From contig NZ_PPSL01000008.1 in NCBI RefSeq assembly GCF_002954265.1, positions 62,001-126,000 on the forward strand: a stretch of DNA of 64,000 bases, given 5' to 3'. Below are positions 13,470-54,884 of this stretch, in pieces; position 1 is the first letter of the stretch; every line of letters starts with the position of its first letter. This DNA comes from Flavipsychrobacter stenotrophus (GTDB lineage Bacteria; Bacteroidota; Bacteroidia; Chitinophagales; Chitinophagaceae). The notes under the pieces were generated by a model, which was not told the DNA's origin, did not search any database, and saw nothing but the letters and a program-made list of their open reading frames with translations. The position numbers and the translations under genes were made by a program.

Positions 13470-16400
13470 ATGCCCCCTGGTATAGTACTCGGAATATCGC
13501 GCCCTGATTTTTTGCTGGAGGAAACTCTGGCAGAAGTATTCCGTATGTCTGCACAAAAACACGCATCTAAGACAGCGCTTATATTCGATGACAGGTCTGT
13601 CACTTATGGTGAGTTGGACAGGTGGAGCGATGCAATGGCTTTGTATCTGTCTGAAAAGGGCATAAAGCCGGGTGATGCGGTAGGGCTTTGGTGGCCGCGT
13701 AGTCTGGAATTGCATGTAGCGGTTCTGGGTATTGTGAAATGTGGGGCCGCTTATGTGCCACTGGATAGGGAAATGCCTGCTGAAAGAGTAGAAACGGTGC
13801 TGAATGAGGTGCAGGCGAAAGCATGTATCAGTGACGGAGCCCTGAATATCGATTGTCCTGTTTTCGGTGTTGTGGGTATGCCCGCAGCAAATACAACAAT
13901 TAGTTTGGTAGATGGTCCTGCGCCTGATAATTGGGCATATGTATTATATACATCTGGTAGTACCGGTAAACCAAAGGGTATACCGATTACCCACAGAATG
14001 ATCACTCATTTTGTGCGTGCCGAACAGAGTGTACTCAACATACGGACAACCGATAAAGTATATCAGGGATTTTCTGTGTCGTTCGACATGTGGTGCGAAG
14101 AAGTTTGGATCTCTTACTTTGTTGGTGCTACTATGTGGGTTGCCGATGCAACTACAACCAAATCTATAGATGAGCTGGATGAGGTGCTGCGCAGGCAGCA
14201 TATAACAGTACTACATACTGTGCCTAGCCTGCTGGCGGTAATGAACGATGATGTGCCGTTGGTAAGATTAGTGAATGCAGGTGGAGAAGCCTGTACCGCA
14301 CAGGTTGTGTCTCGATGGTCAGTACCGCCAAGGCAATTCTTTAATAGCTATGGTCCAACTGAAACGACCGTTACAGCAACTATTACTACATTAAAGCCGG
14401 GCGAACCAATAACTATAGGTCAACCATTACCTAACTATAATCTTGCAGTTGTTGATGAACAGCTTAACCTGTTGCCCGTAGGTGAGCGGGGCGAGCTGGT
14501 GATAACAGGCCCCGGCGTATCTCATGGATATGTGAACAGGCCCGACCTTACTATTGAAAAGTTTGTAGCCAAGCCTGAAAGTCTATCGGTGCTGCCGGGA
14601 GATTTTGTTTACAAAACGGGTGATGCTGCTATCATTAATCCCGACAGAAGCATCGATTTTCAGGGCCGACTAGATGACCAGATCAAACTGCGTGGCTATC
14701 GTATAGAGTTGGGGGAAATAGAAAATCAACTGAGTAACCTTACTGATATTACTGCCGCGGCAGTGGCGGTAAAGAAAGATATAAACGGACAGGATCACCT
14801 GGCAGGCTATGTAGTTTGTGATGATCCTGTGAATATGAATCAGCAGAGCATAAGAGATGCGTTGGCCAAAGTACTGCCGGCCTACATGGTGCCGAGTGTT
14901 ATTGTGCAGCTATCCGAAATGCCCCGTCTGCCAAGCGGTAAGATCAACCGTAAAGAACTGCCCGTCCCTGCCATGCTTATGGAAAGCTCGGTTTCAGGCG
15001 CAGACGATATTATAGATATTGATGCGCCGTTGGGCGACAGGGTAATTGCGGCGCTGAGAAAGAATTTCCCTAACAGGCAAATAGACGGATCTCTCGATTT
15101 CTTTACCGATTTGGGTGGGCATTCCTTGCTTGCGGCCTCATTTGTGTCGCGGTTGCGTAAGGAGGCTAATATTCCCCAGGCTTCGCTAAAGGATATATAT
15201 CTGAACCGTCCATTGGGTGCCCTCATTAATTACTGGGAAAGTAAAAAGGCAGAAAAGCCTAAAGAGAAAAAGGTATTTAACCAGATATCTAAAAAGCGGT
15301 TTTACATGTGCTGGGCAGCGCAGACATTGTCTCTGTTGCTGATGTACGGATTATTTGCTGTGCAGATATTTTTCCCATACCTGGGTTACTACGGCATTAA
15401 AGAGTATACGGGTAACATTGGCCTGGGTATAGCTACGGCCCTTGGAGTGTATTTCCTTATTCCACCATTCTTTGCCACGCTCAGCATATTGGTGAAGTGG
15501 CTGGTGATTGGTAAGATGAAGGAAGGCGATTATCCGTTGTGGGGTGGTTATTATTTCCGTTGGTGGTTTGTAAAGACGTTTCAGCGCCTGCTGCCATCAG
15601 AGTTTTTGAATGGCACACCACTTTATTGCAGCTTTTTACGCAGAATGGGCGTGACCGTGGCCAAAGACACGCAGCTGGCTGCCATTACCATAGGCGCAGA
15701 AGATCTGGTAAGTATTGGCAGCGACGCCAGCCTTAGTTCGCAGGTGGTGATCAACAATGCATGGGTGGAAGATGGACTGTTGAAATTGCGTAAAGTACAC
15801 ATTGGTGCTCATGCCTACATAGGGAGTAGTGCCATTATAGCGGGTGGTGCTACAGTAGAAGATTGGGGTGAACTGCAGGACCTTAGTTATCTGCAAGAGG
15901 GCAAGACAATTAAGAGCGGTGAGATATGGCAGGGTAGTCCGGCGGTATTAAAACAGACCAAGCCAATAGATGAACTTCCGCAACCCATATTTGTTTCAAA
16001 CGCACGGAGAAGGACCTATAAAGTAATATTCCTTTTACTATTGTTGCTGTTCCCTTTTGTGATCTTATTGCCTCTGCTGCCTACTGTTATTATCCTAAAT
16101 GATCTGGATAATTCTACGCCTGATTATGACTTTAGTTATATGATCGTAACACCTTCATTAGCATTGAGTTATATCATTATTTTCTCGCTGGTGACAATAG
16201 GCCTCACCCGCCTGCTGCAGCGGGGCATAAAGCCGGGCAAATATCCGATCTATAGCGGTTTCTATCTTAGGAAATGGTTTGCTGATCAGTTGATGAGCTT
16301 GTCGCTAATAGTACTTCACCCCATATATGCCACAGTATTTGTAAGTATCTGGTTCAGGGCACTTGGTGCTAAGGTGGGCAAGAATACCGAAATTTCAACA

Positions 16401-17408
16401 GCAAGTAGTGTTACACATCCACTGCTGGAAATAGGCAAGAATGCATTTGTGGCTGATGCAGTAACACTGGGTGAATCTGATGTCAGAGGTCAGCAATTGA
16501 TTCTGGAAAAGACCATTATAGGTAACAATAGCTTTGTAGGTAACAGTGCTTTGATACCGCAAGGGTATCACTTGCCGGGTAGAATGTTGATAGGGGTCCT
16601 GTCAACACCGCCTGATGCACAGCAACTGGAAGGTGCCAAGGCCAAAGACTGGTTTGGCTCACCGGCCATAGCGTTGCCTCGCAGGCAGGAAAGCCGTACA
16701 TTTCCTGCTGAGCAGACGCTTAGGCCTTCGCCTCAACGTATACTGGGTAGGACCATTGTAGAGTTTATCCGCATACTCATACCAGAAACTACGATCATCA
16801 TTTGCAGTATATTATTCATTGCCTATTCTCACGATCTGCTTGTAGAAAAGCATTGGTGGGAAATAGCCTATACATTGCCTGTCTATTATCTCTATTACAT
16901 GGGCTTGCCTGCCTTTCTGGTCACTTTTGTAATGAAGTGGGTGTTTGTGCGCAGGTTCAATGCCGAGCAGAAGCCTATGTGGACGCCAAAGGTGTGGATA
17001 AGTGAGGCTATCACATCTACTTATGAAGCATTGACAGTGCCATTTGTGCTGGATTATATGCGTGGTACCCCTTGGTTGCCCATATTGTTAAGATTAATGG
17101 GTGTGAAAATAGGCAAGCGTGTATGGATGAACACGACCGACATTACCGAATTTGACATGGTAAGTATTGGCGATGATACTGCACTTAATGAAGACTGCGG
17201 ACCACAGACCCATTTGTTTGAGGATAGAGTAATGAAGGTCGGTCCGATAAAAATAGGGCAGCGCTGCAACATTGGCGCTCGCTCTATCATACTCTATGAT
17301 AGTGAAATTGGTAACGATGTAGGTGTTGATCCACTATCGTTGGTAATGAAAGGAGAGAACCTGCAACCGGAAACAAACTGGGGAGGGAGTCCGGTTCGTT
17401 CAGCCTAA
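13470..17408 (+). CDS. Pls/PosA-family nonribosomal peptide synthetase (poly-amino-acid synthetase-like)
   Basis: A single-gene NRPS of 1312 residues, about the size of the epsilon-poly-L-lysine synthetase Pls. An adenylation domain (about 20-500) shows A3 YVLYTSGSTGKPKG (from about 157), A5 NSYGPTETT, A7 YKTGD, A8 GRLDDQIKLRGYRIELGE and A10 LPSGKINRKELP. A carrier domain follows with GGHSLL (phosphopantetheine Ser near 552). Then come three tandem blocks (from about 605, 850 and 1095), each with membrane helices followed by a hexapeptide-type beta-helix. By analogy with Pls these form peptide bonds between free amino acids in the membrane. There is no condensation or thioesterase domain. Reading against GrsA, the pocket is D-M-E-H-V-A-S-V-K. 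The acidic Glu at 239 hints at a basic amino acid (inference). Confidence 0.88.
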   Translation: MPPGIVLGISRPDFLLEETLAEVFRMSAQKHASKTALIFDDRSVTYGELDRWSDAMALYLSEKGIKPGDAVGLWWPRSLELHVAVLGIVKCGAAYVPLDREMPAERVETVLNEVQAKACISDGALNIDCPVFGVVGMPAANTTISLVDGPAPDNWAYVLYTSGSTGKPKGIPITHRMITHFVRAEQSVLNIRTTDKVYQGFSVSFDMWCEEVWISYFVGATMWVADATTTKSIDELDEVLRRQHITVLHTVPSLLAVMNDDVPLVRLVNAGGEACTAQVVSRWSVPPRQFFNSYGPTETTVTATITTLKPGEPITIGQPLPNYNLAVVDEQLNLLPVGERGELVITGPGVSHGYVNRPDLTIEKFVAKPESLSVLPGDFVYKTGDAAIINPDRSIDFQGRLDDQIKLRGYRIELGEIENQLSNLTDITAAAVAVKKDINGQDHLAGYVVCDDPVNMNQQSIRDALAKVLPAYMVPSVIVQLSEMPRLPSGKINRKELPVPAMLMESSVSGADDIIDIDAPLGDRVIAALRKNFPNRQIDGSLDFFTDLGGHSLLAASFVSRLRKEANIPQASLKDIYLNRPLGALINYWESKKAEKPKEKKVFNQISKKRFYMCWAAQTLSLLLMYGLFAVQIFFPYLGYYGIKEYTGNIGLGIATALGVYFLIPPFFATLSILVKWLVIGKMKEGDYPLWGGYYFRWWFVKTFQRLLPSEFLNGTPLYCSFLRRMGVTVAKDTQLAAITIGAEDLVSIGSDASLSSQVVINNAWVEDGLLKLRKVHIGAHAYIGSSAIIAGGATVEDWGELQDLSYLQEGKTIKSGEIWQGSPAVLKQTKPIDELPQPIFVSNARRRTYKVIFLLLLLLFPFVILLPLLPTVIILNDLDNSTPDYDFSYMIVTPSLALSYIIIFSLVTIGLTRLLQRGIKPGKYPIYSGFYLRKWFADQLMSLSLIVLHPIYATVFVSIWFRALGAKVGKNTEISTASSVTHPLLEIGKNAFVADAVTLGESDVRGQQLILEKTIIGNNSFVGNSALIPQGYHLPGRMLIGVLSTPPDAQQLEGAKAKDWFGSPAIALPRRQESRTFPAEQTLRPSPQRILGRTIVEFIRILIPETTIIICSILFIAYSHDLLVEKHWWEIAYTLPVYYLYYMGLPAFLVTFVMKWVFVRRFNAEQKPMWTPKVWISEAITSTYEALTVPFVLDYMRGTPWLPILLRLMGVKIGKRVWMNTTDITEFDMVSIGDDTALNEDCGPQTHLFEDRVMKVGPIKIGQRCNIGARSIILYDSEIGNDVGVDPLSLVMKGENLQPETNWGGSPVRSA

Positions 17409-33364: not shown

Positions 33365-36300
33365 ATGAACAAAGTCTTTTTTCTTTTTACTAGAATGATC
33401 TGTGTAGTCGGAATTTGCTTTATTTCCTCACTTGCCACAGCTCATTCAAAGAGCGACGTAAGTGCAGATAAATTCAAACTGGAATTATTATTTACCCCAA
33501 ATCTTGGCCAGGTTGCGGATATGGCGGGAGCAGTGAGGCCTGATATATTGTTTACAGCCCATAGTGCAAACACCAACGTATATATTACAGCTACCGGGAT
33601 AGCATACCAGTTCTCAAAAACGAATTATCCTGAAGGGTACGACCCTTTAGTTACAGATATAAATAACAAGGACATACAAGCCGAGACGCAAACATTTTTG
33701 CTCACGGTGCAACTGGTTGGTGCCAACACCCATGCGAAGGTCCGCAAGGAAATGATGACAGACAGGAAAGAGAATTTTTATCTTTCCAATTGCCCTGATG
33801 GGATTACTAATGTAAGTACCTATAGAAAACTTGTTTATGAGAATGTATATCCAAAGATCGACTGGGTAGTATATTCTAAAGGCAACAGTCTTAAGTATGA
33901 TTTTATAGTAAGGCCAGGTGGCAACCCTGAGCAAATAAAGCTTTCAATTAATAATGCTGATGATGTGGTAATATCGGCGGAAGGTGAATTGCTGATGCAT
34001 ACCCGGTTGGGGACAATTAAGGAGCAGACACCTGTAAGTTTTGCGGGTAGCCGGCCCATCAAAACCGGATTCCACAAGAACGCTGATGGGACCATAGGTT
34101 TTATTGTCGCTCCATTTGAAAAAAATGCAACGCTTATTATCGACCCTGCTGTTACCTGGTCAACTTACTACGGAAATTCTGCTTTAGACCTGTTTAATAG
34201 CATTAAGGTTGATCTGTCGGGGAATGTTTTTGTGTCAGGACTATCTGCCTCCGTTGCGGGTATTGCTACCTCCGGAGGGTTTCAGACCACTTTTGGAGGA
34301 GGAACCGGCGATGCTGTTCTTGCCAAATTCGATGCGTCGGGAAACCCGCTTTGGGTAACCTACTATGGAGGTGCGGGGCAAGAAACGGCTGGCTCTTGCG
34401 CAGTTGATATGAGTGGCAATACATTTTTGACTTGCCTTACGAATTCAACCACTGGTATTGCTACGCCCGGTGCGTATCAGACCGCTCTTTCAGGAACTGC
34501 GTCAGACGCCTGTTTGGTGAAGTTCAGCTCATCAGGTACCAGATTGTGGGCAACTTATTTTGGTGGTTCCGGTGCTGAATATGTATGGGGGTGCGCCTCT
34601 GATGCAACAGGAAACGTTTATGTCTCCGGTACCACTAACTCCACAACGGGAGTTGCAACAAGCGGTGCTTACCAGACAGTACTGAACGGACTTTCTGATG
34701 CTTATGTGACTAAATTCAGCCCTTCTGGATCGATACTCTGGGCTACTTATTATGGAGGTGCAGGCACTGAAACGGGCAACTACGGTAATATGTGCGCAAT
34801 TGATGCGTCTGATAAATTATACCTCGCCTTCTATACAACATCGACCACCGGAATAAGCACCACAGGTGCTCATCAAACTGCATTCGGTGGTGGCACATCC
34901 GATGCCTGCCTGGTCAAGTTCGATGCTATGGGTGTTCCACTTTGGGGCACTTACTTTGGAGGAGGGGGCAATGAGGCCGGTGGTTTTAGTTGCACAACTG
35001 ATAGCCGACGAAATGTTTATCTGGTAGGAGTGACTACCTCTACTGCCGGTATCGCTACGCCCGGTGCTTTTCAAGCATCGAACGGAGGTGGCACAGATGG
35101 ATTTATTTCCAAGTTCGACTCGGCTGGCAACATTATATGGTCTACCTACTATGGAGGGAGCGCTACCGATGGTGTTGCAGGCTGCACAATTGATAATTAT
35201 ACAGCTAATATTTACGTAGCAGGCAACTCGCAATCTTCCGCCAATATATCCACGCCAGATGCTTTCCAGACGGCACTGGCTGGTACTTCGGATGCATTTA
35301 TTGCCAAGTTCGACTCAGCAGGTTCAAGACAGTGGGGTAGTTATTTTGGTGGTAACGTTACTGAAACTGCCTTCGGGTGTGCATATGACGGTTCGGGCAG
35401 TGTATATATGTCGGGTTTTACTAAGTCGGCCACTGGAGTTGCTACTACAGGTGCATACCAGACAACATTTGGTGGCGCTTCCGACGCTTTTCTTACTAAG
35501 ATATCAGATCTGTCTATCACTACTGATACCTCGTCTGTGACAACTTTTTGCCAGGGAGATACAATAGATGTGCCCTTTACTATCGTCGGTACTTTCCATG
35601 CAGGTAATATTTTTACAGCGGAGCTTTCAGATGCATCAGGCTCCTTTGCCTTACCCGTAGTCATTGGAAGCCTTATAGGGACAATCTCCGATACTATTAC
35701 TGCTGTAGTACCTTCAGGTACAACACCCGGAGTTAACTATAGGATCAGGGTAACCGGTTCGATACCGACTGTAGTTGGAGCTAATAATGGCATTGACCTT
35801 ACTATAAATCCTTTGCCTGTGGTTGGTATAATATCCGGTGCTACGTCAGTATGCTCAGGTGCAGCCGTAACCCTTAGTGTTGGTGTAGCAGGTGGGGCAT
35901 GGACAAGCGGTGTTGCCGGTATTGCTACTGTCAACTCCAGTGGACAGGTAACCGGTGTACTTGCGGGAACGACATTGATCTCATATACTATCACCAATAG
36001 TTGCGGTATAATTTCCGACACCGCTATTATGACCGTCAACCCTACACCTTCTGCGGGCACTATAACTGGTGCTACCACATTTTGTGTGGGTGCCGGAGGC
36101 GCACTTGCGGACACAGCTACCGGTGGTGCCTGGATAAGCCTGTTGACTGGGATAGCTACAATAAACAGCAGCGGAATGGTGACACCTGTTGCCGCAGGCG
36201 CTGATACTATTTTATACATTGTTACCAATGGTTGCGGGACTGATACTGCATCAGTTGCAATTGTAGTAAATGCATTGCCGGCAGCAGGGGTTATAACTGG

Positions 36301-37954
36301 TGTTACTTCAGTATGTGTAGGTGCAACATCTGCGCTGACCGCAACCCCATCAGGTGGAGTGTGGATCAGTACTATGCCATCCATCGGAACAATAAATAGT
36401 ACGGGAGTTGTGACAGGTGTAGCGACAGGTGTAGACACAATCTTATATGTAGTAACAAATACTTGTGGTGCAGACACCGCCCTGGTGCTGATGACAGTTA
36501 TTTCAACACCATCAGCAGGATCGATAACCGGATCCGGATTTGTTTGTTCGGGTAGTACAGCCTCGTTGTCTTCATCTGTTGGCGGTGGCTCATGGAGCAG
36601 CAGCGCTCCCGGCATAATATCTGTAAATAGCAGCGGAATAATAACGGGAGGACTGACAGTGGGCAGCGCTGCAATTATCTCCTATACGGTAACCAACGCT
36701 TGCGGCACTTCGGTAGATACAATGGCTGTTACCGTGAGCGGAACAGGATCGGTAGCACCTATAACCGGCACTGCAGTAGTTTGTGCCGGTGCAACTACAA
36801 TGCTTTTTGAAATTACCACAGGTGGAGTGTGGAGTAGTACATCTCCTTCTGTAGCAACAGTAAACGCTACCGGTATAGTGACAGGAGTATCAGGTGGAAG
36901 TGCCATCATTTCGTACACGATTACAACCAGCTGCGGAACGATTGCTGCTACAAGAATAGTTACTGTTGGTCCTGCACCGGTACCGGGTATAATTTCAGGT
37001 GGTTCAATTGTTTGCGTTGGTGCGCATCTTACGCTTAGTGAATCGGTTGCCGGTGGGGTATGGAGCAGCTATGCACCATTGGTGGCTACGGTGAGTAGTA
37101 GTGGTGTTGTGTTGGGCATTACTACGGGGTCAACTATTATATCCTATACTGTTACCAATAGCTGTGGAAGCGCCTCAGCTATAACTGTTGTTGCTGTATC
37201 TCCAGCGCCTTATGCCGGCACAATAAGCGGCCCGTCTTCAGTATGTGTCGGTAATGCAATTACGTTGACAAGTTCAGTTTTTAGTGGTGTATGGACAAGT
37301 TTACCATCAACTACATTGATCACAAGTAGCTGGGGACTTGCTACAGGTATCTCGCCGGGTAATGCTACAGTTTACTATTCAGTAACCAATAGCTGCGGCA
37401 CTGCTACAGACTCAGTAAGTATCAATGTTATGGCGCCTGCAATTGCGGATAGTGTTACGGTTCCGGCAGGCGTATGCATAGGCGCTACCATTATGCTCGG
37501 CTCATCATCTTACCCGGGTACATGGACTGCTGATACCACTTATGCTAAGGTTACAGCAGGTGGAGCGCTCACAGGTTTAGCATCGGGAATTGCTACAGTG
37601 ACTTACACGATCACCAACGCCTGTAACACGGATACTGCTATAAGGCAGATAACGGTATATACCCCAGCGATATGTGACTCAATAGTGTCGGTAAATATTG
37701 TAGCAAACCAATCAGCTATTACCCTTTACCCTAACCCGACCGTTGGTACATTCATAGTCTTGTTGCCTGAAATGATTGAACCTGCTACTATTGCAGTAAC
37801 CGATATATATGGCCGGGTAGTCATGAGACAGTTTACAGGCATTAATGTCGATCGAAGTATTAAAGTAGATCTCTCTGACTATGCAGCTGGTACTTATTTT
37901 GTCTCAGTAACATCTGGTAAAACAAACTTTAGAGAGAAGTTGGTCAGGCGATAG
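33365..37954 (+). CDS. Giant T9SS cargo protein: SBBP seven-bladed propeller plus eight Big_2-like repeats
   Basis: A 1529-residue exported protein. A signal peptide (about 1-27) leads into a DUF7948-type N-terminal domain (about 30-260, with NLGQV, YPKIDWVVYSKGNSLKYDF and RPGGNPEQIKL). Seven SBBP repeats (about 264-715) follow, each with a W-[SVAG]-[TS]-Y-[YF]-G-G core and a D..GN.[YF]..G strand, enough for a closed seven-bladed propeller. After one Ig-like domain (about 720-820) come eight Big_2-like repeats of about 73 residues, each with a [VF]C[VSA]G and a GGxW[ST]S motif. The end is a type A T9SS sorting domain (ITLYPNPTVGTF, GTYFVSVTSGKTNFREKLV). It is a close paralogue of the N-terminal part of the next protein. 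Confidence 0.87.
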   Translation: MNKVFFLFTRMICVVGICFISSLATAHSKSDVSADKFKLELLFTPNLGQVADMAGAVRPDILFTAHSANTNVYITATGIAYQFSKTNYPEGYDPLVTDINNKDIQAETQTFLLTVQLVGANTHAKVRKEMMTDRKENFYLSNCPDGITNVSTYRKLVYENVYPKIDWVVYSKGNSLKYDFIVRPGGNPEQIKLSINNADDVVISAEGELLMHTRLGTIKEQTPVSFAGSRPIKTGFHKNADGTIGFIVAPFEKNATLIIDPAVTWSTYYGNSALDLFNSIKVDLSGNVFVSGLSASVAGIATSGGFQTTFGGGTGDAVLAKFDASGNPLWVTYYGGAGQETAGSCAVDMSGNTFLTCLTNSTTGIATPGAYQTALSGTASDACLVKFSSSGTRLWATYFGGSGAEYVWGCASDATGNVYVSGTTNSTTGVATSGAYQTVLNGLSDAYVTKFSPSGSILWATYYGGAGTETGNYGNMCAIDASDKLYLAFYTTSTTGISTTGAHQTAFGGGTSDACLVKFDAMGVPLWGTYFGGGGNEAGGFSCTTDSRRNVYLVGVTTSTAGIATPGAFQASNGGGTDGFISKFDSAGNIIWSTYYGGSATDGVAGCTIDNYTANIYVAGNSQSSANISTPDAFQTALAGTSDAFIAKFDSAGSRQWGSYFGGNVTETAFGCAYDGSGSVYMSGFTKSATGVATTGAYQTTFGGASDAFLTKISDLSITTDTSSVTTFCQGDTIDVPFTIVGTFHAGNIFTAELSDASGSFALPVVIGSLIGTISDTITAVVPSGTTPGVNYRIRVTGSIPTVVGANNGIDLTINPLPVVGIISGATSVCSGAAVTLSVGVAGGAWTSGVAGIATVNSSGQVTGVLAGTTLISYTITNSCGIISDTAIMTVNPTPSAGTITGATTFCVGAGGALADTATGGAWISLLTGIATINSSGMVTPVAAGADTILYIVTNGCGTDTASVAIVVNALPAAGVITGVTSVCVGATSALTATPSGGVWISTMPSIGTINSTGVVTGVATGVDTILYVVTNTCGADTALVLMTVISTPSAGSITGSGFVCSGSTASLSSSVGGGSWSSSAPGIISVNSSGIITGGLTVGSAAIISYTVTNACGTSVDTMAVTVSGTGSVAPITGTAVVCAGATTMLFEITTGGVWSSTSPSVATVNATGIVTGVSGGSAIISYTITTSCGTIAATRIVTVGPAPVPGIISGGSIVCVGAHLTLSESVAGGVWSSYAPLVATVSSSGVVLGITTGSTIISYTVTNSCGSASAITVVAVSPAPYAGTISGPSSVCVGNAITLTSSVFSGVWTSLPSTTLITSSWGLATGISPGNATVYYSVTNSCGTATDSVSINVMAPAIADSVTVPAGVCIGATIMLGSSSYPGTWTADTTYAKVTAGGALTGLASGIATVTYTITNACNTDTAIRQITVYTPAICDSIVSVNIVANQSAITLYPNPTVGTFIVLLPEMIEPATIAVTDIYGRVVMRQFTGINVDRSIKVDLSDYAAGTYFVSVTSGKTNFREKLVRR

Positions 37955-38098
37955 ACCAGAGTGTTAGTGATAACACAAACTTCATTTCCCTTTTTGCTAG
38001 AGGTTATGTTCATTTTAATTTTCTTTCCGGCGGATCGTCGGGTCTTTATATATAACAAATATATAACATGCAGTAACTTCCTTGTTAATATCTTTCTC

Positions 38099-41000
38099 AT
38101 GAAAACACTTTCTTTATCTATAATAACCTTTGGGTTGGTGCTGTTGTCTTTTTTATGTAATGCAAAGGGCAATGATCTGTTAGTGGAAAACTATTCACAA
38201 AAATTATTACATCAGCCATTACTTTTTACTGAAAATAGCGGGCAGGCATACGACCAAAGCGGCAAGCTAAGGAATGATGTATTGTTTACAGGCCACAGAG
38301 GAGCCATGAGCTTTTGTTTGACAACCGTGGGTATTGAATATCAGTTTACAAAACTGGTCGGTGACAAAAACAGGAGAAGAAACGTGACTGTAAAAACCCA
38401 TCGTTTTTCGCTGGAACTTGTTGGAGCCTCCAGGACGGCTTCAATAGTTAAACTCGGTAGAAGCAACTATACTGAAAACTTTTTTAGTGGTATGAACAGC
38501 AGTGGCATTACGGGTGTTGCTAGTTTTGAAAAGGTTGTATATCAGAACGTATACCCAAACGTTGACTGGGTGGTGTATAGTGCTGACGGGCATATAAAAT
38601 ATGATTTTGTGGTAAGACCCGGAGGTAATCCCGATCAGATACGGCTAAAAGTAAAAGATGCCTCGAGGGTCAGCATAACAAAAGATGGTGCATTACTAAT
38701 GCAAACGCGTTTGGGTGAGGTAAATGAAGCCCCGCCCAGTAGCTTTGCAAGCGGCCGGAGTATACCAACAAAATTCAGGCTTTATGACAATAATATCATT
38801 GGCTTTGTCATTGCGTCGTACCCTGGTAATGCCACATTGACCATTGATCCAGCTGTAAGCTGGACTACATATTATGGCGGAACCGGTAATGAACAGGCCT
38901 ATGGCTGTGCAACCGATGCATCTGGCAATGTATATCTATCCGGCACTTTAGCTACTAATGCGACGTCGCTGGCATCAGGTGGATACCAGATAACTTACGG
39001 AGGTGGTACTTCTGATGCGTTCCTTATAAAATTCAGGCCTGATGGCACAAGAGCCTGGGCAACTTATTATGGTGGTGCTGGTAATGAAACAACACCGTTG
39101 TGTGCGGTGGACAATTCAGGTAACGTTTATATGTGCGGTGGTACAACTACTACAGTGAGTGCCAGTATTGCAACATCGGGTGCATTTCAGACAGCCATCA
39201 GCGGCACAAGCGATTTGTTTCTGGCTAAGTTCGATGCTTCTGGTGTCCGCCTCTGGTCAACTTATTATGGTGCGAGCGGAGCGGAAGGAACCCCGACATG
39301 CTGCGTCGACGCATCTGGAAATGTATATTTATCCGGTACTACAGGAGCAGTTTCGATCACAAATCCCGGTAATATTGCTAACAACGGGAATCAGAATATA
39401 CCATCGTCCGGAGGTACAGGAAATGATGTTTTCATTGCAAAATTTAATGCCTCCGGCGTTCGTCAGTGGGGTACTTACTTTGGAGGAGTCGGCAATGAAG
39501 TGATCGGTAATCACTCTTGTGCGGTAGACAATTCGGGTAATGTATACCTATGTGGATCAACTCCTTCAACACTTTCCATTGCAACGAGCGGCAGCTATCA
39601 GGCAACCTATGGTGGCGGTACAGGAGACGCCTTTCTTGCTAAATTCAACCCTTCTGGTGGTCCGGGGTCACTTTTATGGTGTACGTATTTTGGTGGCTTG
39701 ATGACTGAAAGCACGGTGAATTGCGCAATGGACAATTCGGGAAATGTGTATCTCGCAGGATCAACAACTTCAACAAATAATATTGCCAGCAGTGCAACGG
39801 TAGCGCAACCTACATATGGTGGAGGCACTTCTGCCGACGCGTTTTTGGCCAAATTTACCACCAGCGGTACGTTGCTCTGGAGCACATATTACGGTGGATC
39901 GTTGGCCGATAATGCCAATGCCTGCGCTACCGCTTCTGATGGCAGCGTATACATATCTGGTAGTACGGCATCTACATCGGCAGTAGCTACCGGTGGTTTC
40001 CAGAACGTAAATGCAGGTTCTACTGACGCTTTAATTGTTAAGTTCAATTCAGCGGGAGCGCTGCAATGGGGTTCTTACCTTGGCGGGCCGGCGGCGGACG
40101 CAGCAAACGGGATTTTTGTAAGTAGTACGGATACAATATTTGTCTGCGGTTTTACTCAGAGCACTTCAGGCATAGCCACATCAAGTGCTTTTCAGGGAGC
40201 GTTCGGAGGGGTTTTAGACCAGTTCTTATCTAAAATATCAGATGGTACAGCAACCGCTCCCATAACAAGTATCACAACCGGTGCCATTTCAGGTACGTTA
40301 TGCGCAAGTGGCGCATCCGTAAGTGTGCCATTTATTGCCACAGGCACCTTTGCGCCCGGCAATATTTTTACTGCACAGCTATCCGATGCTGCCGGTTCCT
40401 TTACCAGCTCATTGATCATAGGCACACTAGCCAGTACCACTTCAGGAGCTATTTCCGCAAATATTCCTGCAGCTACGCCTGCGGGAAGCGGGTATAGAAT
40501 ACGTGTGGTAAATAGTTTAACTATTGGAACTGATAATGGGTCTGATCTTGCGGTGACACCGCTGGCCGGTTCTATTTCAGGGCCACTTACACTTCTGCCC
40601 GGAGAGATCGTAACAGTAATCGTAACTGGTGCCGGCACAGGTGGAGCATGGTCAAGCACTTCTTCTTCGGTAGCATCTATAAACGTATCTTCAGGTGTTC
40701 TTATAGCAGCATCTACTGCTGCTGCATATAGCACCACTGATACATCCACAATTCAATACGCGGTTCCGGTAACCGGTTGTGGAACTGTTAGCTTTACAAC
40801 CAGGGTAACAGTGAAACCCGCATTTACACCACGTAATCTGGTGGTTTACCAGGTTGCCGGTACTACAGAGGCGGCAGGTGCGGTTTCGTTGTTGGAATAT
40901 ACAACTACGGGTTCTTCGGTAAACACTGTAGTGCTTCCGTCGAGCGGTGCCGTTCAAATTACAGCTGGTGCCAGTCGTGTAGTTGAGGGACAAATGTCTC

Positions 41001-44000
41001 TGGACGCCGAGCAAACTCATCTTATTGTGCCAGGATTTGATGCAGCGGCAGGTACTGCCTCTCCACACGGTCAGTTGAGCGCAACATACAAAAGAGAGCT
41101 TTTTACAGTTGACCCGCAAAAAAGCGCTACACTAGCCTATAAGCAAGATGTTTATAACGTAAATGATATTAATGGCGCTACAGCAAATGGTTCAAACTAT
41201 TTTGCATCAGGATCAGGCAGCAATGGTATAACGTTTATGAACACACCGGCAACTGTATACAGCAATAACTTTCTCAGGAATGTTCACATATTCAATGGTC
41301 AACTATATTGTTCAGGTCAATCTCCTGTAGGCATATCTGCAATCGGTTCTGGTATGCCAACTTCATCTGCCTCAGTATCGCTACTTAGTACATCGGGTCT
41401 TACTTTGTCTAGTCCGTACGCCTTCGCGATAAGCCCGGATGGTAACACGCTTTATGTTGCTGATGACGCTGCGGGAATATTCAAATATTCAAACGTGGCC
41501 GGTACGTTTGTTTTCCAATATAAGGTCACTACTACTACTTGCCGTGGACTGACGGTTGATTTTACTACGGTGCCTTTTATACTTTATGCAACAACGGCAA
41601 ATTCGCCTGCCAACTCAGTCATTAAGATCACTGATAACGGTGCAAGTTCTACCATTATTACATTGGCCACTGCAACAAGCACCAATAATTTCCGGGGTGT
41701 TTCATTTACTCCGTCTCCATTTGTTAAGATTAAAGTGACGACGCCTGCTATCTGCTCCGGCAACCTCGACACGGTTATCATTTATGCTAATCCGGGCGCT
41801 ACGGTTACTTATAGCAACGGTATTACTAATTCGTCAGTTACGATCGATGCAACGGGTATGGGGATTGTTAGTGTCTCGCCCACAAGTACAACAACCTATT
41901 CGCTCGTCAGTATTGCTACTTCTGTTGGAACGTTTCTGGCTATAGACAGTGCAACTGTGACAGTTAATCCGGGTGGTGCACCGGCTATTACAACCATACA
42001 TTCGGACCCTACTGTTTGTGCCGGCAACCCACTGCACCTTAATACTGCAATAGCCTCGGGAGCCCTACCTTATACCTATACCTGGACAGGACCCGGATCT
42101 TTTACTACATCGTCTGCATCATCTGCTACAACAAACTCAGTAAATGTAACGTCGATACCGTCGGTGCCAGGGAATCCGGTATATACTCTGTCGGTAGTTG
42201 ATGCCAATGGATGTCGCGCAACCGGCATAAATACGGTAACAACCACAGTTGGCTCGCCGGGTATCTATACTGTAACCGGTACCGGTGGTTATTGTTTGGG
42301 TGGTACGGGCATAATTATTGGGCTTAACGGTTCTCAATCGGGCACAAACTATCAATTGTATAGTGGCGCAACAGCGATAGGTAGTCCGGTTGCGGGCACA
42401 GGTAGTACACTTGCTTTTGCGGCGGTAACAGCTGCCGCCACCTACTCAGTTGCAGGAACAGACGGCGCGTCGGGCTGTAGTATTGGAATGTCTGGCTCAG
42501 CTACTGTTACCATATTGCCGCGTCCTGCTATCTTGTCCATTTCAGGAGAGGGTATTTTATGCGCAGGGTCTGCTTTGCATCTTACCTCTTCTATTTCGGC
42601 AACATCGCCGAGCTATAACTACACATGGAACGGGCCATCGTCTTACAGTAATTCAGCAACCTCAACCTTGCTTTCCAACTCCCTGACCATTACATCGGTA
42701 CCGGCTACGCCAGCTACACAGGTCTATACACTGATAGTTACAGATGCTAATGGCTGTGATGCTACAGGTGTCAATACAGTAACTACTACCGTCAATCCGT
42801 CGCCAAATGCCGGTGCGATATCGGGTGCGGCATCGCTTATACCGGGGCAGATAAGTACGCTAATGTCTTCTGGAGACCCCGGAGGTGTATGGAGTATCAG
42901 TGCCCCTGCCTTTGCTACAGTTAGTCCCGGTGGTGTTATCACGGGGCTTTCGCAAGGTAGTGCAACTACCAGCTATAGTCTGTCAACAGGCAGTTGTTCG
43001 GTATTTGCAACTTTGCCTGTTGTGGTTAGCAATGCTTTTGCAAATGCGAATATTATTGTGCTTAAGCAAAATGGAAATTCGACATCATCTGCAAGTGTGT
43101 CGCTTATTGAATATACAACAAGCGGTGGGGCAATTGGTGCACTCAATTTTCCAACAGCATCGGGTAATGTTAAGCTCACACAGGCACCTGTAGGACATGT
43201 GCAGGAACAAGGATTTATGACACTGGATGCGGAAGGTACGCACATAATTGTTGCTGGTTTTGATACCACAGCGGGTGTTGCGGGTATAACTACTATTCCG
43301 GGGTTAGGTGTTCGTAAAGAGATACTGTCGGTCTTGCCATCTAAAGCCTATTCAAGAGTATCTGTAATACCGGGCACTACCTTGTTTTGTTATGATGATT
43401 ATTCTTCAGCCACTGCATCGGGGAGTATCTATTATGGTGCCGGATGCTCTACGGGTACTCCCACAAGTGCGGGTACACAGTTAATGGGCGCAACCGCCAA
43501 TACTCAGGTGTCAGCTACACCCAACAGCACACGGGTAAACAGCATATTTAATGGTCAGCTATACACCTCGTCTGTTGTGCCCTCGCCTGGTATTTACCAG
43601 GTAGGCACGGGTACTCCTACTGCTGCAGCTACATCAATACTGATTACATCGGGTGGGGGAAGTAGCCCTTATGCTTTTATGATCTCGCCTGATAGTAAAA
43701 CAATGTATGTGGCAGATGACGTTGCGGGTATTCAGAAATTTACTAAAACAGGCGGTACCTATAATTTTTCATATAACGTTACTACCACCGCATGCCGTGG
43801 CCTTACGGCTGATTTTACTGTAGTGCCCTATATAATATATGCTACCACAGCCGCCACACCGGTAAATACAGTGATAAAGGTTGCAGACAACGGCGCGGGG
43901 TCATCTGTCACAACTCTTGCCGCAGGCACCGCTGCAGTTAAATTTAAGGGGGTAGTACTTGCACCTTCATCTAAGGCCGGGATAACCACCAATGCAACTA

Positions 44001-47000
44001 CTTTGTGCTCCGGCAATCCAGACACAGTTACTTTTTATGGTAATCCGGGATCAGTTATCAATTATACCCGGAATGGGGTAGCGGCATCAATAATTATAAA
44101 TAGTACCGGGGGTGGTTTTATTGTAGATACTTTGCCTGTTTCTACTACCTATTCTCTGGTGAGTATTGTTACCTCTTTGGGTACTTTTACTGCGTCAGGT
44201 AGTGTCACCGTAACCGTCAATCCTTCGCCTGTCATCTCTGCGCTTTCAGCTGCGGCGAATGTTTGCGCGGGAAGTGATCTTACACTTGCCTCCACACTTA
44301 GTTCTGGAGCGGCACCCTTTACTTATGTCTGGAGTGGCCCATCGGGTTATTCTTCTTCAATAGTCAGTTCCGCGACCAATTTATCCGTAGTAGTTTCTTC
44401 CGTTTCTGCAACGCCTGCAATCCATGTCTATTTATTGGTCGTTACAGATGTGAATGGTTGTTTTGCAACTGGTACCAATACAGTTACTACAGTAGTGAAC
44501 GTTGCTCCATCATCCGTTACGGCTATAGCATCCGGTATTTCATTATGCACAGGCGCATCGCTGTCTTTAACAGGAACCGCAACCGGTGCAACCAACTATC
44601 ACTGGTATGGGCCGGGTGCGTATGCTGCCGGTGTATTAAATCCACCGTCGCTTTCTGTTTCCATGCTTTCTTCAGGCGTTTATACGCTTTCTGCCGGCAG
44701 TATGTGCGGTACTATTACCGCCACCACGGCACCTGTAACAGTCAATAATTATCCAATAGTTTACAACGTGACCGGTGGTAACGGCTGCAGTGCGGCCGGC
44801 CTTGTTGCCGGTCTTGATGGCTCTCAGACATCTGATGTCAACTATCTTTTAAGAAGATTTCCATCTACTACTGTTGCTACATTCAGTGGTGCCACCGCAC
44901 CAATCTCATTTGCAGCTGTTTCTGTTCCGGGTGTGTATAGGGTAGTGGCTATAGGCCCGGGTGGCTGCCAGTCAGATATGGCGGGAGCAGATACTGTGAA
45001 TCAATCTCCTGCTATTGCTCTGGGAACGATAGGAGGAATATGTCAACCTGCAACTTCCCTACCTGTTAGTTTTAGTGGCGTTGTAGGTAGCCCGTCTGTT
45101 TATATTCTTGATTGGGATACGACAGCTAATGCTGCCGCTTTTACTGATATTGCAGCCACCCCGCTAAGTGGATCATCTATAACATTGGCTATTCCTTCGG
45201 CGGGCATGCCCGGCACATTCAATGGAAATTTAACGGTGTCTGACGGCCTTTGCGGCAGCACCGCTTACCCGGTTAATGTTGCTGTATACACAGATCCTTT
45301 CACGTTGGTTACAGGTATTAATCCGCCATGTTCAGGATATTCAGGTAGTATAGATTTCTCCGGATCGATAGGGACAGTTGTAGAATATTCTATTGATGGT
45401 GGTACTCCAGTGTCATTTACGTTTGCTGGTTCCGCATATTCTCTGTCAACAGGGGTTATGTCGATACCACATACTTATTATTTGATGGGTGCCCACAATC
45501 CTGCCTGCTCTGCAGTACTTTCGGATACTATAACTATAAGCCCAATTCACATGACATGGCTGGGTGCCTCTTCTGACTGGGACGATTCAACCAACTGGTC
45601 GTGTGGTTTTGTACCTGGTGTGTCTGACGATGTGTCGATAGGCACAGCAACTTTCGGGCCTTCGATTGTACTGTCTGGTGCTGCAAGAGATATTCAGTTA
45701 AACCCGGGCTCTGCATTGGTTATTGCCAGTGGCAGTCAGCTAGCGGTAAAAGGCACATTGATCAACAATAGCGCGGTGTCCGGTCAGGGCAAAATAGTAT
45801 TGAATGGCCTGATACCTCAAATGATAAAGGGGAAAGGTAATATTTCCAATCTTGAGCTGGATAATATCGCTGGTGCTACAATAGACACAGGCGCACGTCT
45901 CGTGATCGGTACTACATTATTTGTAACCTCGGGTACACTAACTACTAACGATAGTCTTGAACTCGCATCAGGCGATTCGCTAAGTACGGCAAGGATAGCC
46001 GAATTGCCTCTTTCGGGTAGTTCAATATACGGAAAAGTAAAGGTAGACCAATACGTGCAGGGGCACTTTCGCAGGTATCGCTTCTGGAGTCACCCATTCA
46101 ATTCTTCGCTATCGCTAAGCCAGTTGCAGCGATACATAGATATTACAGGCCCCGGAGGTGCCGGCAATGGATTTACCTCTACATCTAGTAATGCGCCATC
46201 CGCATTCAGGCTAGACCCTTATACAGAGAATGATACCCTGGGTTACGATCCAGGATGGAAGCCATTTACAAAGATCAATTCATCTGCCGCCGACAGCAAT
46301 AAGATAAAGAGATTCCAGGGCATCCGTTTATTTATCAGGGGTACAAAAGGGGAGGGTCTTGGGTATCTGGGGTACTATGGTATGTATGACCCTTCGCCTG
46401 TAGTTGTAAAAATGTCCGGATACATTAATCAGGGATCACAAACGGTCTTTCTGGCACAGGGCTATGCTGATCCTTTACATCAGTCTTTCAACATGATAGG
46501 TAACCCTTACCCATCTCCGGTTGACATTGGTACTGTTCTTTACCATGCTGCACAAACAGGCAATGTACAAGGTGGCGCATTTTATGTCTGGGATCCTACA
46601 TGGGGAGCCGGTGGAAACTTCGTGACAGTACCTATCGGTACTTCAACGCCAATTCCTTATAACATAGGGACCAATACCTGCTTTCAGGTGCGCGCAGCTC
46701 ACAATGGCGACTCACTCAATTTTGTAGAAAGCGATAAGTCAGCTGCATACAATAATTATCTTTTCAAAATGCCTTCAGACTATCTGACGCTCTGCATTTA
46801 CGACAGCAACTATCATATCTGGGATGCCCTTCATTTTCGGTTTGATGATAGTTCGACTGATGCCGAAGACAGTAAGTTTGATGCAGTAAAACAATTGAAT
46901 GCTGATTTTGTATTCTACAGCCTTTCATCTGACAGTCGTAAAATGGCAATAGATGATCGTCCTTTCAGTGCGGGTAAAGTGATACCCCTTGGTATTGCGA

Positions 47001-47458
47001 GCGCATACAATCAGAACTTTATAATCAAGTCCGAAAATGTAGCGCTTCCTTCGGGGAATACTCTATTTCTGCATGACAAGCTATTGGAAAGGTTTACGGA
47101 ATTAAAGCCGGGAGCTGAATATGGCTTTACAATCAACAAAGAAAAAGCATCACAGGGCGATGCAAGGTTTGAATTGGTGCTTAGGTCAGAATCGAGATCT
47201 GCAGATAATGATCTAAAGTTAACCATGATGCCTAACCCAGCATCTGAAGAGTTGAACATACTTTTCACTTCTACCAGGAATGAGCAGACAAGTGTAAGAA
47301 TAATGGACCTGTCAGGTGTGAATATTTACAGTAAAGATTTGGGTATAACACAAGGTGGTATAGTAAACATACCCTTTAACAATGTCACATCTGGTATATA
47401 CGTGGTAGAACTTACATCTGGTGCGAAGAAAGTAATACAAAAGTTATTGAAGGAATAG
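38099..47458 (+). CDS. Giant T9SS cargo protein (3119 residues): SBBP propeller, duplicated 300-residue domain, T9SS sorting domain
   Basis: The longest protein in the window. I chose the ATG at 38099 because a signal peptide (MKTLSLSIITFGLVLLSFL) starts there; the open frame runs further upstream without support. A DUF7948-like domain and seven SBBP blades (about 250-710) match the preceding protein. Two copies of an unnamed domain of about 300 residues follow (about 911-1205 and 1648-1958), each with LIEYTT, SLDAE.THLIV, YAF.ISPD and YVADD.AGI.K motifs, separated by PKD/Ig-like units. Near 2490 a SSDWDDSTNWSCGFVPG segment starts a region typical of very large T9SS proteins (FRRYRFWSHPF, GNPYPSPVDIG). 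The type A sorting domain ends it (MMPNPASEELNIL, GIYVVELTSGAKKVIQKLL). Confidence 0.87.
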   Translation: MKTLSLSIITFGLVLLSFLCNAKGNDLLVENYSQKLLHQPLLFTENSGQAYDQSGKLRNDVLFTGHRGAMSFCLTTVGIEYQFTKLVGDKNRRRNVTVKTHRFSLELVGASRTASIVKLGRSNYTENFFSGMNSSGITGVASFEKVVYQNVYPNVDWVVYSADGHIKYDFVVRPGGNPDQIRLKVKDASRVSITKDGALLMQTRLGEVNEAPPSSFASGRSIPTKFRLYDNNIIGFVIASYPGNATLTIDPAVSWTTYYGGTGNEQAYGCATDASGNVYLSGTLATNATSLASGGYQITYGGGTSDAFLIKFRPDGTRAWATYYGGAGNETTPLCAVDNSGNVYMCGGTTTTVSASIATSGAFQTAISGTSDLFLAKFDASGVRLWSTYYGASGAEGTPTCCVDASGNVYLSGTTGAVSITNPGNIANNGNQNIPSSGGTGNDVFIAKFNASGVRQWGTYFGGVGNEVIGNHSCAVDNSGNVYLCGSTPSTLSIATSGSYQATYGGGTGDAFLAKFNPSGGPGSLLWCTYFGGLMTESTVNCAMDNSGNVYLAGSTTSTNNIASSATVAQPTYGGGTSADAFLAKFTTSGTLLWSTYYGGSLADNANACATASDGSVYISGSTASTSAVATGGFQNVNAGSTDALIVKFNSAGALQWGSYLGGPAADAANGIFVSSTDTIFVCGFTQSTSGIATSSAFQGAFGGVLDQFLSKISDGTATAPITSITTGAISGTLCASGASVSVPFIATGTFAPGNIFTAQLSDAAGSFTSSLIIGTLASTTSGAISANIPAATPAGSGYRIRVVNSLTIGTDNGSDLAVTPLAGSISGPLTLLPGEIVTVIVTGAGTGGAWSSTSSSVASINVSSGVLIAASTAAAYSTTDTSTIQYAVPVTGCGTVSFTTRVTVKPAFTPRNLVVYQVAGTTEAAGAVSLLEYTTTGSSVNTVVLPSSGAVQITAGASRVVEGQMSLDAEQTHLIVPGFDAAAGTASPHGQLSATYKRELFTVDPQKSATLAYKQDVYNVNDINGATANGSNYFASGSGSNGITFMNTPATVYSNNFLRNVHIFNGQLYCSGQSPVGISAIGSGMPTSSASVSLLSTSGLTLSSPYAFAISPDGNTLYVADDAAGIFKYSNVAGTFVFQYKVTTTTCRGLTVDFTTVPFILYATTANSPANSVIKITDNGASSTIITLATATSTNNFRGVSFTPSPFVKIKVTTPAICSGNLDTVIIYANPGATVTYSNGITNSSVTIDATGMGIVSVSPTSTTTYSLVSIATSVGTFLAIDSATVTVNPGGAPAITTIHSDPTVCAGNPLHLNTAIASGALPYTYTWTGPGSFTTSSASSATTNSVNVTSIPSVPGNPVYTLSVVDANGCRATGINTVTTTVGSPGIYTVTGTGGYCLGGTGIIIGLNGSQSGTNYQLYSGATAIGSPVAGTGSTLAFAAVTAAATYSVAGTDGASGCSIGMSGSATVTILPRPAILSISGEGILCAGSALHLTSSISATSPSYNYTWNGPSSYSNSATSTLLSNSLTITSVPATPATQVYTLIVTDANGCDATGVNTVTTTVNPSPNAGAISGAASLIPGQISTLMSSGDPGGVWSISAPAFATVSPGGVITGLSQGSATTSYSLSTGSCSVFATLPVVVSNAFANANIIVLKQNGNSTSSASVSLIEYTTSGGAIGALNFPTASGNVKLTQAPVGHVQEQGFMTLDAEGTHIIVAGFDTTAGVAGITTIPGLGVRKEILSVLPSKAYSRVSVIPGTTLFCYDDYSSATASGSIYYGAGCSTGTPTSAGTQLMGATANTQVSATPNSTRVNSIFNGQLYTSSVVPSPGIYQVGTGTPTAAATSILITSGGGSSPYAFMISPDSKTMYVADDVAGIQKFTKTGGTYNFSYNVTTTACRGLTADFTVVPYIIYATTAATPVNTVIKVADNGAGSSVTTLAAGTAAVKFKGVVLAPSSKAGITTNATTLCSGNPDTVTFYGNPGSVINYTRNGVAASIIINSTGGGFIVDTLPVSTTYSLVSIVTSLGTFTASGSVTVTVNPSPVISALSAAANVCAGSDLTLASTLSSGAAPFTYVWSGPSGYSSSIVSSATNLSVVVSSVSATPAIHVYLLVVTDVNGCFATGTNTVTTVVNVAPSSVTAIASGISLCTGASLSLTGTATGATNYHWYGPGAYAAGVLNPPSLSVSMLSSGVYTLSAGSMCGTITATTAPVTVNNYPIVYNVTGGNGCSAAGLVAGLDGSQTSDVNYLLRRFPSTTVATFSGATAPISFAAVSVPGVYRVVAIGPGGCQSDMAGADTVNQSPAIALGTIGGICQPATSLPVSFSGVVGSPSVYILDWDTTANAAAFTDIAATPLSGSSITLAIPSAGMPGTFNGNLTVSDGLCGSTAYPVNVAVYTDPFTLVTGINPPCSGYSGSIDFSGSIGTVVEYSIDGGTPVSFTFAGSAYSLSTGVMSIPHTYYLMGAHNPACSAVLSDTITISPIHMTWLGASSDWDDSTNWSCGFVPGVSDDVSIGTATFGPSIVLSGAARDIQLNPGSALVIASGSQLAVKGTLINNSAVSGQGKIVLNGLIPQMIKGKGNISNLELDNIAGATIDTGARLVIGTTLFVTSGTLTTNDSLELASGDSLSTARIAELPLSGSSIYGKVKVDQYVQGHFRRYRFWSHPFNSSLSLSQLQRYIDITGPGGAGNGFTSTSSNAPSAFRLDPYTENDTLGYDPGWKPFTKINSSAADSNKIKRFQGIRLFIRGTKGEGLGYLGYYGMYDPSPVVVKMSGYINQGSQTVFLAQGYADPLHQSFNMIGNPYPSPVDIGTVLYHAAQTGNVQGGAFYVWDPTWGAGGNFVTVPIGTSTPIPYNIGTNTCFQVRAAHNGDSLNFVESDKSAAYNNYLFKMPSDYLTLCIYDSNYHIWDALHFRFDDSSTDAEDSKFDAVKQLNADFVFYSLSSDSRKMAIDDRPFSAGKVIPLGIASAYNQNFIIKSENVALPSGNTLFLHDKLLERFTELKPGAEYGFTINKEKASQGDARFELVLRSESRSADNDLKLTMMPNPASEELNILFTSTRNEQTSVRIMDLSGVNIYSKDLGITQGGIVNIPFNNVTSGIYVVELTSGAKKVIQKLLKE

Positions 47459-54061: not shown

Positions 54062-54884
54062 GAGTTTTTATTGAGAAGTCATGCAAATTTATTGAATACC
54101 TAAAATCTGAGTGTAATAAGATTCCACAATAGAGTGTTGTTTCGCTTCTTTATGATTTTGGGGTGACGGATTTATTGCAATTATTTTATTTTCGAATAGT
54201 GCAGTTACTCTTCGCCTGGGTGGAACTAGACATATTAAAAGAGCTGTATAAATTTTAGGAAATGCTGGTCTTGAATTTGAAATTACAGACTAATTCTACT
54301 AAGGACGACTAATACTCGAAAATTGCCTTCAAATCCTCCATGAAATAGTTCAAAAGTTGTCCCTTACAGTCCGCAGAAACATAATAGCACCTATTAAGGG
54401 TGCTATTTTTGTTTGTGGGTGAGTCTGTAAGTTATTGATTATCAATAGCTATAAGTTAGAAATTGATAATTGACTATTGTCAGGATCAAGTTTTGAGTAG
54501 AATTCTAAGACAACCTCAAGACATAAAGTCAAATTCGCCAAGACATAACTATTTATCTTCTGATGGACTGAAATTCAATTACATATACGTTTCGGATAGT
54601 AATGGCAATCAGTCGTGCTTTACTATTATTCTACCGCATCTTGTAGATTAGCATATGTTCCGTTAATTCCCTACGGAAGATAATCGCCGCAGACTTAATT
54701 TATGTTTTTATTGTGTGACTCGCCAATAGTGCGTTTGAGGCAGTTTGTTTCTGGAAGAGGGATTTGCATTACAATTTCCCAAAAAACACATCACTATCTT
54801 TTTTGTTCTTTTTTTAACACTTTCATAATAGTAATGCTATCAGAAAGGAGAGTGTTTATGTGTATTTGCCAAAATTACTTGTAT
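54062..54884. other. Long intergenic region upstream of the type I secretion operon
   Basis: No convincing gene is seen. A 62-codon plus-strand frame at 54463-54651 (RILRQPQDIKSNSPRHNYLSS) has no recognisable family and may be debris. A terminator-like hairpin at 54383-54407 lies just after a stretch ending CAGTCCGCAGAAACA that resembles the sequence found after tRNA genes, though no tRNA folds there. The in-frame extension of the ABC gene (from 54702) is probably leader or noise. Confidence 0.5.
54383..54407 (+). terminator. Terminator-like hairpin
   Basis: AATAGCACC / GGTGCTATT (9 bp, loop TATTAAG) followed by a T run. No plus-strand gene precedes it, so it may be the leftover end of a lost gene. 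Confidence 0.6.

Follow-up and report, generated by a model that had tools for sequence, protein, structure and literature searches.

A predicted delta-poly-L-ornithine synthetase of the Pls/PosA family in Flavipsychrobacter stenotrophus and a possible acetyltransferase partner

Which amino acid does a Bacteroidota enzyme use if it is built like the synthetases of cationic homopoly(amino acids)? The question is raised by a gene in a stretch of 64,000 nucleotides of Flavipsychrobacter stenotrophus DNA (contig NZ_PPSL01000008.1, positions 62,001 to 126,000; hereafter the window). A first-pass annotation of the window had placed the gene in the family of the epsilon-poly-L-lysine synthetase Pls and the delta-poly-L-ornithine synthetase PosA, and had suggested an uncharacterized product. 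We propose that it probably encodes a membrane-bound, single-module enzyme of this family that makes delta-poly-L-ornithine, a polymer reported from Acinetobacter baumannii (PMC10522769). An acetyltransferase of the GNAT family tends to occur in the same genomes and may be its partner.

Family and architecture of the synthetase

The open reading frame (ORF) runs through its 1,312 codons without interruption (Table 1). Pfam, TIGR02353 and AlphaFold2 bear out the domain order first noted for these 1,312 residues, namely, adenylation, carrier and three membrane plus beta-helix blocks. Eight Pfam families match up to an E value of 1: AMP-binding (residues 24-354), AMP-binding_C (416-491), PP-binding (534-584), four hexapeptide/beta-helix models and a sub-threshold GH3. 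These matches include one carrier and neither a condensation nor a thioesterase domain; the carrier match is weak yet above its cut-off (PF00550, 21.5 against 20.8 bits). Family membership is clear from TIGR02353, the NCBI model of the Pls/PosA terminal domain, which matches end to end (model positions 2-695 of 695) at 645.2 bits against a curated cut-off of 423.1. Because this model already names such proteins, the synthetase belongs to an already known kind.

Table 1. Features of the synthetase in the window and the unlinked acetyltransferase gene of the same genome
Feature	Position	Strand	Remarks
Pls/PosA-family single-module synthetase, predicted delta-poly-L-ornithine synthetase	13470..17408	+	1312 aa; TIGR02353 645 bits, cut-off 423
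Adenylation domain, residues ~17-499	13518..14966	+	YTSGSTG from residue 160, YGPTE from 294, YKTGD from 381, A10 Lys491
Substrate pocket: Asp206, Met207, Glu210, His249, Asn269, Gly271, Ser293, Val301, Thr302 (Lys491 further on)	14085..14375	+	Ungapped alignment to PosA 8G95-8G98; MAFFT
Carrier (thiolation) domain, residues 534-584	15069..15221	+	PF00550; Ser552 in GGHSL, presumed phosphopantetheine site
C-terminal polymerization region, 3 repeats	15291..17405	+	TIGR02353, residues 617-1309; AlphaFold2 model; PF00132 hexapeptide
GNAT of the source genome (L144), not linked to the synthetase	G000:C12:367566-368048		Homologue of synthetase-adjacent GNATs

Substrate pocket

Aligned to the solved structures of PosA (PDB 8G95-8G98) and read from a MAFFT alignment, the adenylation domain has the pocket code DMEHNGSVTK. 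The comparison covered one adenylation domain and was free of gaps over residues 205-369, across which PosA was the best solved-structure match (192 bits; 7WEW, the structure of Pls, reached 112 bits); no siderophore or capsule enzyme emerged as a close relative. The published PosA code is DMEHNGTVSK (PMC10522769), so that 8 of 10 positions are identical and the only differences are Thr/Ser exchanges at two hydroxyl contacts, with Ser293 and Thr302 at code positions 7 and 9 in place of Thr304 and Ser313. The code alignment is validated by two controls, since the same script returned the published PosA code exactly for the A. baumannii homologue and the DLEDIGTVVK type, which PMC10522769 gives for rhizobia, for two Rhizobium rows. 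Seven of the nine residues read in the first-pass annotation (D235, M236, E239, H278, V299, A301, S322, V330, K517) hold up; V299 and A301 do not, the true residues at code positions 5 and 6 being Asn269 and Gly271, and position 9, Thr302, was missing from that list.

The pocket fits a basic amino acid, as had been predicted: the code lies near that of PosA, and positions 1 and 3 are Asp206 and Glu210, the Asp and Glu expected for the Pls/PosA family. As described in PMC10522769, PosA residues Asp217, Met218, Glu221, Thr304 and Ser313 interact with the substrate, with Glu221, Thr304 and Ser313 contacting the delta-amine, and the enzyme is inactive once Asp217 or Glu221 is changed. The same source ties code position 2 to side-chain length, with Phe for short acids, Met for ornithine and Ala for lysine; here, the position is held by Met207, the counterpart of Met218. 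The comparison with characterized Pls and PosA enzymes proposed at the outset gives a PosA-like pocket and not the lysine type of 7WEW. Since the code is nearly that of PosA, apart from the two Thr/Ser exchanges, the likeliest product is delta-poly-L-ornithine. An uncharacterized homopoly(amino acid) has become less likely, as the corrected code nearly equals that of an enzyme with a known product, and a new substrate as first choice was dropped after the realignment.

Relatives, distribution and other substrates

Closely similar pockets recur in other Bacteroidota. A scan of genome contigs returned 132 related loci, the best 80 of which all carry Bacteroidota titles, including Chitinophagaceae, Flavipsychrobacter, Taibaiella, Niabella, Chitinophaga, Mucilaginibacter and Chryseobacterium. 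A full code could be read for 76 of these 80, the remaining four being too short; 75 have the form DMEHNG[ST]V[ST]K, a single one is DMESNGSVSK, and that of L034 is identical to the code of PosA. Within the genus of the source genome, 10 of 11 genomes have a synthetase match (E ≤ 1e-50), nine of them above the family cut-off, and the eleventh genome is 82% complete. The synthetase was found in 43 of 294 genomes of the family sample, all above the cut-off, and above the cut-off in 6 of 395 genomes of the phylum sample (325 of 395 matched in all at E ≤ 0.001, the other matches, among those listed, being short and weak). A control search found it in one of 14 well-known genomes. Among the 43 family genomes, five (Q, L122, L123, L125 and L127) all read DMEHNGSVTK; of the other 38, three gave incomplete codes, and the 35 complete ones are DMEHNG[ST]V[ST]K in 33, DMEHKGTVTK in one and the lysine-type DAESIGSVIK in one. 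The PosA-like type occurs in several Bacteroidota genera, alongside a second, lysine type (L096, DAESIGTVIK; L199, DAESIGSVIK). The word "bacteroid" is absent from the main text of PMC10522769, whose homologue list in the supplementary tables may hold members of this phylum, and a literature search joining poly-L-lysine synthetase with Bacteroidetes found no paper.

Elsewhere in the family, pocket type tracks chemistry. Seven of 12 outgroup loci from a plasmid collection have codes starting with DFE, and DFECLS-type loci on a Streptomyces plasmid (L138) and a Skermanella plasmid (L141) adjoin a diaminobutyrate transaminase gene; neighbors can therefore hint at the substrate. A maximum-likelihood tree of 43 rows, built by a quick method from a selection of 30 Bacteroidota loci with ornithine codes, the 12 outgroups and L096, set these 30 apart from all other rows at a branch with a Shimodaira-Hasegawa-like approximate likelihood ratio test (SH-aLRT) value of 100, with long branches and a named outgroup split. 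The lysine-type L096 fell outside them.

Some observations weigh against ornithine as the substrate. Next to the 30 ornithine-code rows, the A. baumannii row shares a long branch with DLEDIG-type rows from Azospirillum/Rhizobium, and a Sphingomonas row whose code resembles the ornithine type branches separately, so that an ornithine-only clade is not shown; we know of no substrate assay for the DLEDIG type. Pocket codes can also mislead, as a Bdellovibrionales homologue with a different code preferred arginine (PMC10522769). This preference, together with the Ser/Thr exchanges at positions 7 and 9 and the crystallization of PosA also with D-ornithine and L-lysine (PMC10522769), would suit an enzyme of the same type that makes another homopolymer from lysine, diaminobutyrate, arginine or a modified ornithine. 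We consider this unlikely, however: Met, which matches the length of ornithine, stands at position 2 in every one of the 76 codes that are complete among the related loci, and the lysine-type Bacteroidota rows have DAESIG instead.

Terminal domain and proposed mechanism

Given an alignment with 24 relatives, AlphaFold2 modeled the terminal domain (residues 601-1312) as three repeated units, in each of which paired long helices (residues ~608-680, 844-917 and 1088-1160) precede a beta-helix, with a mean predicted local distance difference test (pLDDT) score of 84.8 and a predicted template modeling (pTM) score of 0.87. A simple hydropathy scan gave six segments, though without three clean pairs. 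The C-terminal beta-helices resemble those of acyltransferases, and no solved structure covering the whole terminal domain was found, only partial beta-helix matches. Such features leave some room for an enzyme that does not polymerize and attaches ornithine singly to an acceptor, for instance a lipid or an envelope polymer. This appears improbable, as the 695-position Pls/PosA terminal model matches from end to end and the characterized members described in PMC10522769 make polymers. A decayed or unused gene, to which the absence of any obvious link among ten scanned neighbors might point, can be practically dismissed: the core motifs are intact, the synthetase is present in nearly all genomes of the genus, and differences from a 93%-identical relative (L011) amount to 77% at synonymous sites (saturated) and 5% at nonsynonymous sites, placing the gene under strong purifying selection.

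For a delta-poly-L-ornithine synthetase, we infer substrate, linkage and chain formation from PosA as follows. The adenylation domain would activate L-ornithine with ATP, with Asp206 holding the alpha-amine, Glu210, Ser293 and Thr302 holding the delta-amine, and Met207 limiting side-chain length. Activated ornithine would then be loaded onto the phosphopantetheine arm at Ser552, and the three-fold C-terminal membrane/beta-helix domain would link the units via the delta-amine, giving delta-poly-L-ornithine as a short isopeptide chain that is presumably exported across the inner membrane. Its biological role is perhaps competition with fungi or other microbes. The distribution described above suggests that delta-poly-L-ornithine is made in several Bacteroidota genera, where it could act on fungi and neighboring cells.

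A GNAT acetyltransferase that accompanies the synthetase

The first-pass annotation described the gene as standing alone, which holds for the locus but not for the genome. In at least 21 of the 80 related loci, a GNAT gene of ~160-180 residues lies directly downstream of the synthetase on the same strand (tblastn), a lower bound because some loci end short, and the source genome has a homologue of this GNAT elsewhere. The 21 loci belong to Chitinophaga (11), Chryseobacterium (6), Niabella, Taibaiella KBW10, a Flavipsychrobacter metagenome-assembled genome (MAG) and a Bacteroidetes MAG. The GNAT of the source genome is 55% identical to that of L039 (E 1.7e-58) and lies on contig C12, with the synthetase on C16.

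A profile of eight rows (A1; E ≤ 1e-15), which favors synthetase-linked GNATs because it was built from such GNATs and the source genome's own, found the gene in 10 of 11 genomes of the genus, precisely those with a synthetase match. In the family, 21 of 294 genomes have the GNAT, and 18 of these 21 also carry the synthetase, compared to 43 of 294 overall (Fisher p 2.5e-14). Counted by genus, the synthetase is present in 9 of 11 GNAT genera versus 21 of 101 (p 6e-6). The counts for both tests were tallied by hand; the two family searches presumably drew the same 294 genomes, as their sizes are equal and handles are shared. The genomes are related, and counting by genus corrects for kinship only partly. 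All 21 best matches have E ≤ 1.4e-48, so the GNAT family is discrete. Where both genes occur in the family, they are adjacent in seven genomes and on different contigs in 11. The phylum sample has the GNAT in 2 of 395 genomes; of its six synthetase genomes, these two have the GNAT and four lack it. Genomes were sought for 50 of the 80 loci and 49 were searched, some of them also present in the samples above (identical coordinates); 37 have the GNAT, and those without it are 11 Mucilaginibacter genomes and that of L064. Against a tight tie, the GNAT is missing from 25 of the 43 synthetase-bearing genomes of the family, and three genomes have the GNAT and no synthetase match (G441, 79% complete; G489 and G587, both 99% complete). 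With 25 cases of the one kind and three of the converse, the GNAT leans on the synthetase and not the reverse. On a 45-row synthetase tree, the GNAT states adjacent, unlinked and none need seven changes.

The protein from L039 is modeled with a GNAT fold (mean pLDDT 80.6 in the best of five models, 57-59 in the others), and its structural neighbors are mixed, including PaiA, the polyamine acetyltransferase DpA, Naa50 and aminoglycoside acetyltransferases. Searches of NCBIfam and solved structures gave no specific identity, only weak or generic matches that include polyamine, aminoglycoside and N-terminal acetyltransferases. Net charge was obtained for seven of the eight A1 rows and is acidic in all seven (-1 to -11), which suits a cationic substrate and proves nothing. 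The GNAT may acetylate the polycation or its ends, with self-protection or polymer tailoring as its role; alternatively, it could act on ornithine or another amine. We tentatively speculate that in Bacteroidota, a dedicated GNAT acetylates or caps the polycation inside the cell, protecting the producer or setting charge and length, that the exported product may be partly acetylated polyornithine, and that the partnership survives separation of the genes, as in the source genome; this scenario is doubtful as a whole. Partly acetylated polyornithine would, to our knowledge, be unlike any known cationic homopolymer. A limited literature search found no title on a GNAT partner of such synthetases, and a conserved one is not expected from the text of the PosA paper (PMC10522769). 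The conserved GNAT offers a concrete starting point for testing how a producing cell might tolerate its own polycation or modify it.

Genomic context

The ten scanned neighbors of the synthetase include a LysR regulator, DUF47, a PHO4 phosphate transporter, a SpoU methylase, two response regulators, a histidine kinase and ExbB/ExbD-type genes, and one is a small protein that weakly matches a terminase type. As none of these ten is tied to ornithine or polymers, the idea of a biosynthetic cluster surrounding the synthetase was rejected. Promoter sites were no more frequent than in shuffled sequence, and terminators little more. Two matches to PF01648 (4'-phosphopantetheinyl transferase superfamily) are candidates for carrier loading, and two matches to PF00491 (arginase superfamily) are possible ornithine sources. 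Among the related loci, a cluster of 12 has a further gene near the synthetase; the one member tested, that of L022, is a 4'-phosphopantetheinyl transferase (PF01648).

Ahead of the window on contig C16, a 2,195-aa hybrid protein (L009:8764-15351; ~22 kb before the window start and ~35 kb before the synthetase) combines AMP-binding, ketosynthase, acyltransferase, carrier and class-III aminotransferase domains, possibly as part of an unrelated lipopeptide-type cluster, and is followed by an additional AMP-binding match (C16:41864). A cluster shared with these two upstream AMP-binding genes was considered; of the two, the 2,195-aa AMP-binding/polyketide synthase/aminotransferase protein was scanned and taken as unrelated. 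Within the window, positions 33365-47458 encode tandem very large proteins of 1,529 and 3,165 aa, both carrying DUF7948, SBBP repeats and a Por secretion tail, and positions 54702-59252 hold three ORFs with short overlaps (ABC transporter, HlyD-type and outer-membrane efflux) that resemble a type I secretion system.

Comparison with known systems

Poly-diaminobutyrate and poly-diaminopropionate synthetases share family and architecture with the synthetase, but have Phe at pocket position 2 (PMC10522769). Pls (7WEW) is likewise similar in family and architecture; it differs in its lysine-type pocket, with Ala at position 2 and Ser at position 4, and in its lower score. PosA of A. baumannii (PMC10522769; 8G95-8G98) differs in that the A. 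baumannii homologue L132 is ~39% identical to the synthetase over aligned columns, the present host is a Bacteroidota, and no GNAT is annotated among five features in 9 kb around L132, whereas the source genome holds an unlinked one. In architecture, in 8 of 10 pocket positions, in its single-gene locus and in its predicted product, the synthetase is like PosA, whose terminal domain is described as paired helices with beta-helix repeats (PMC10522769), as in the AlphaFold2 model presented here.

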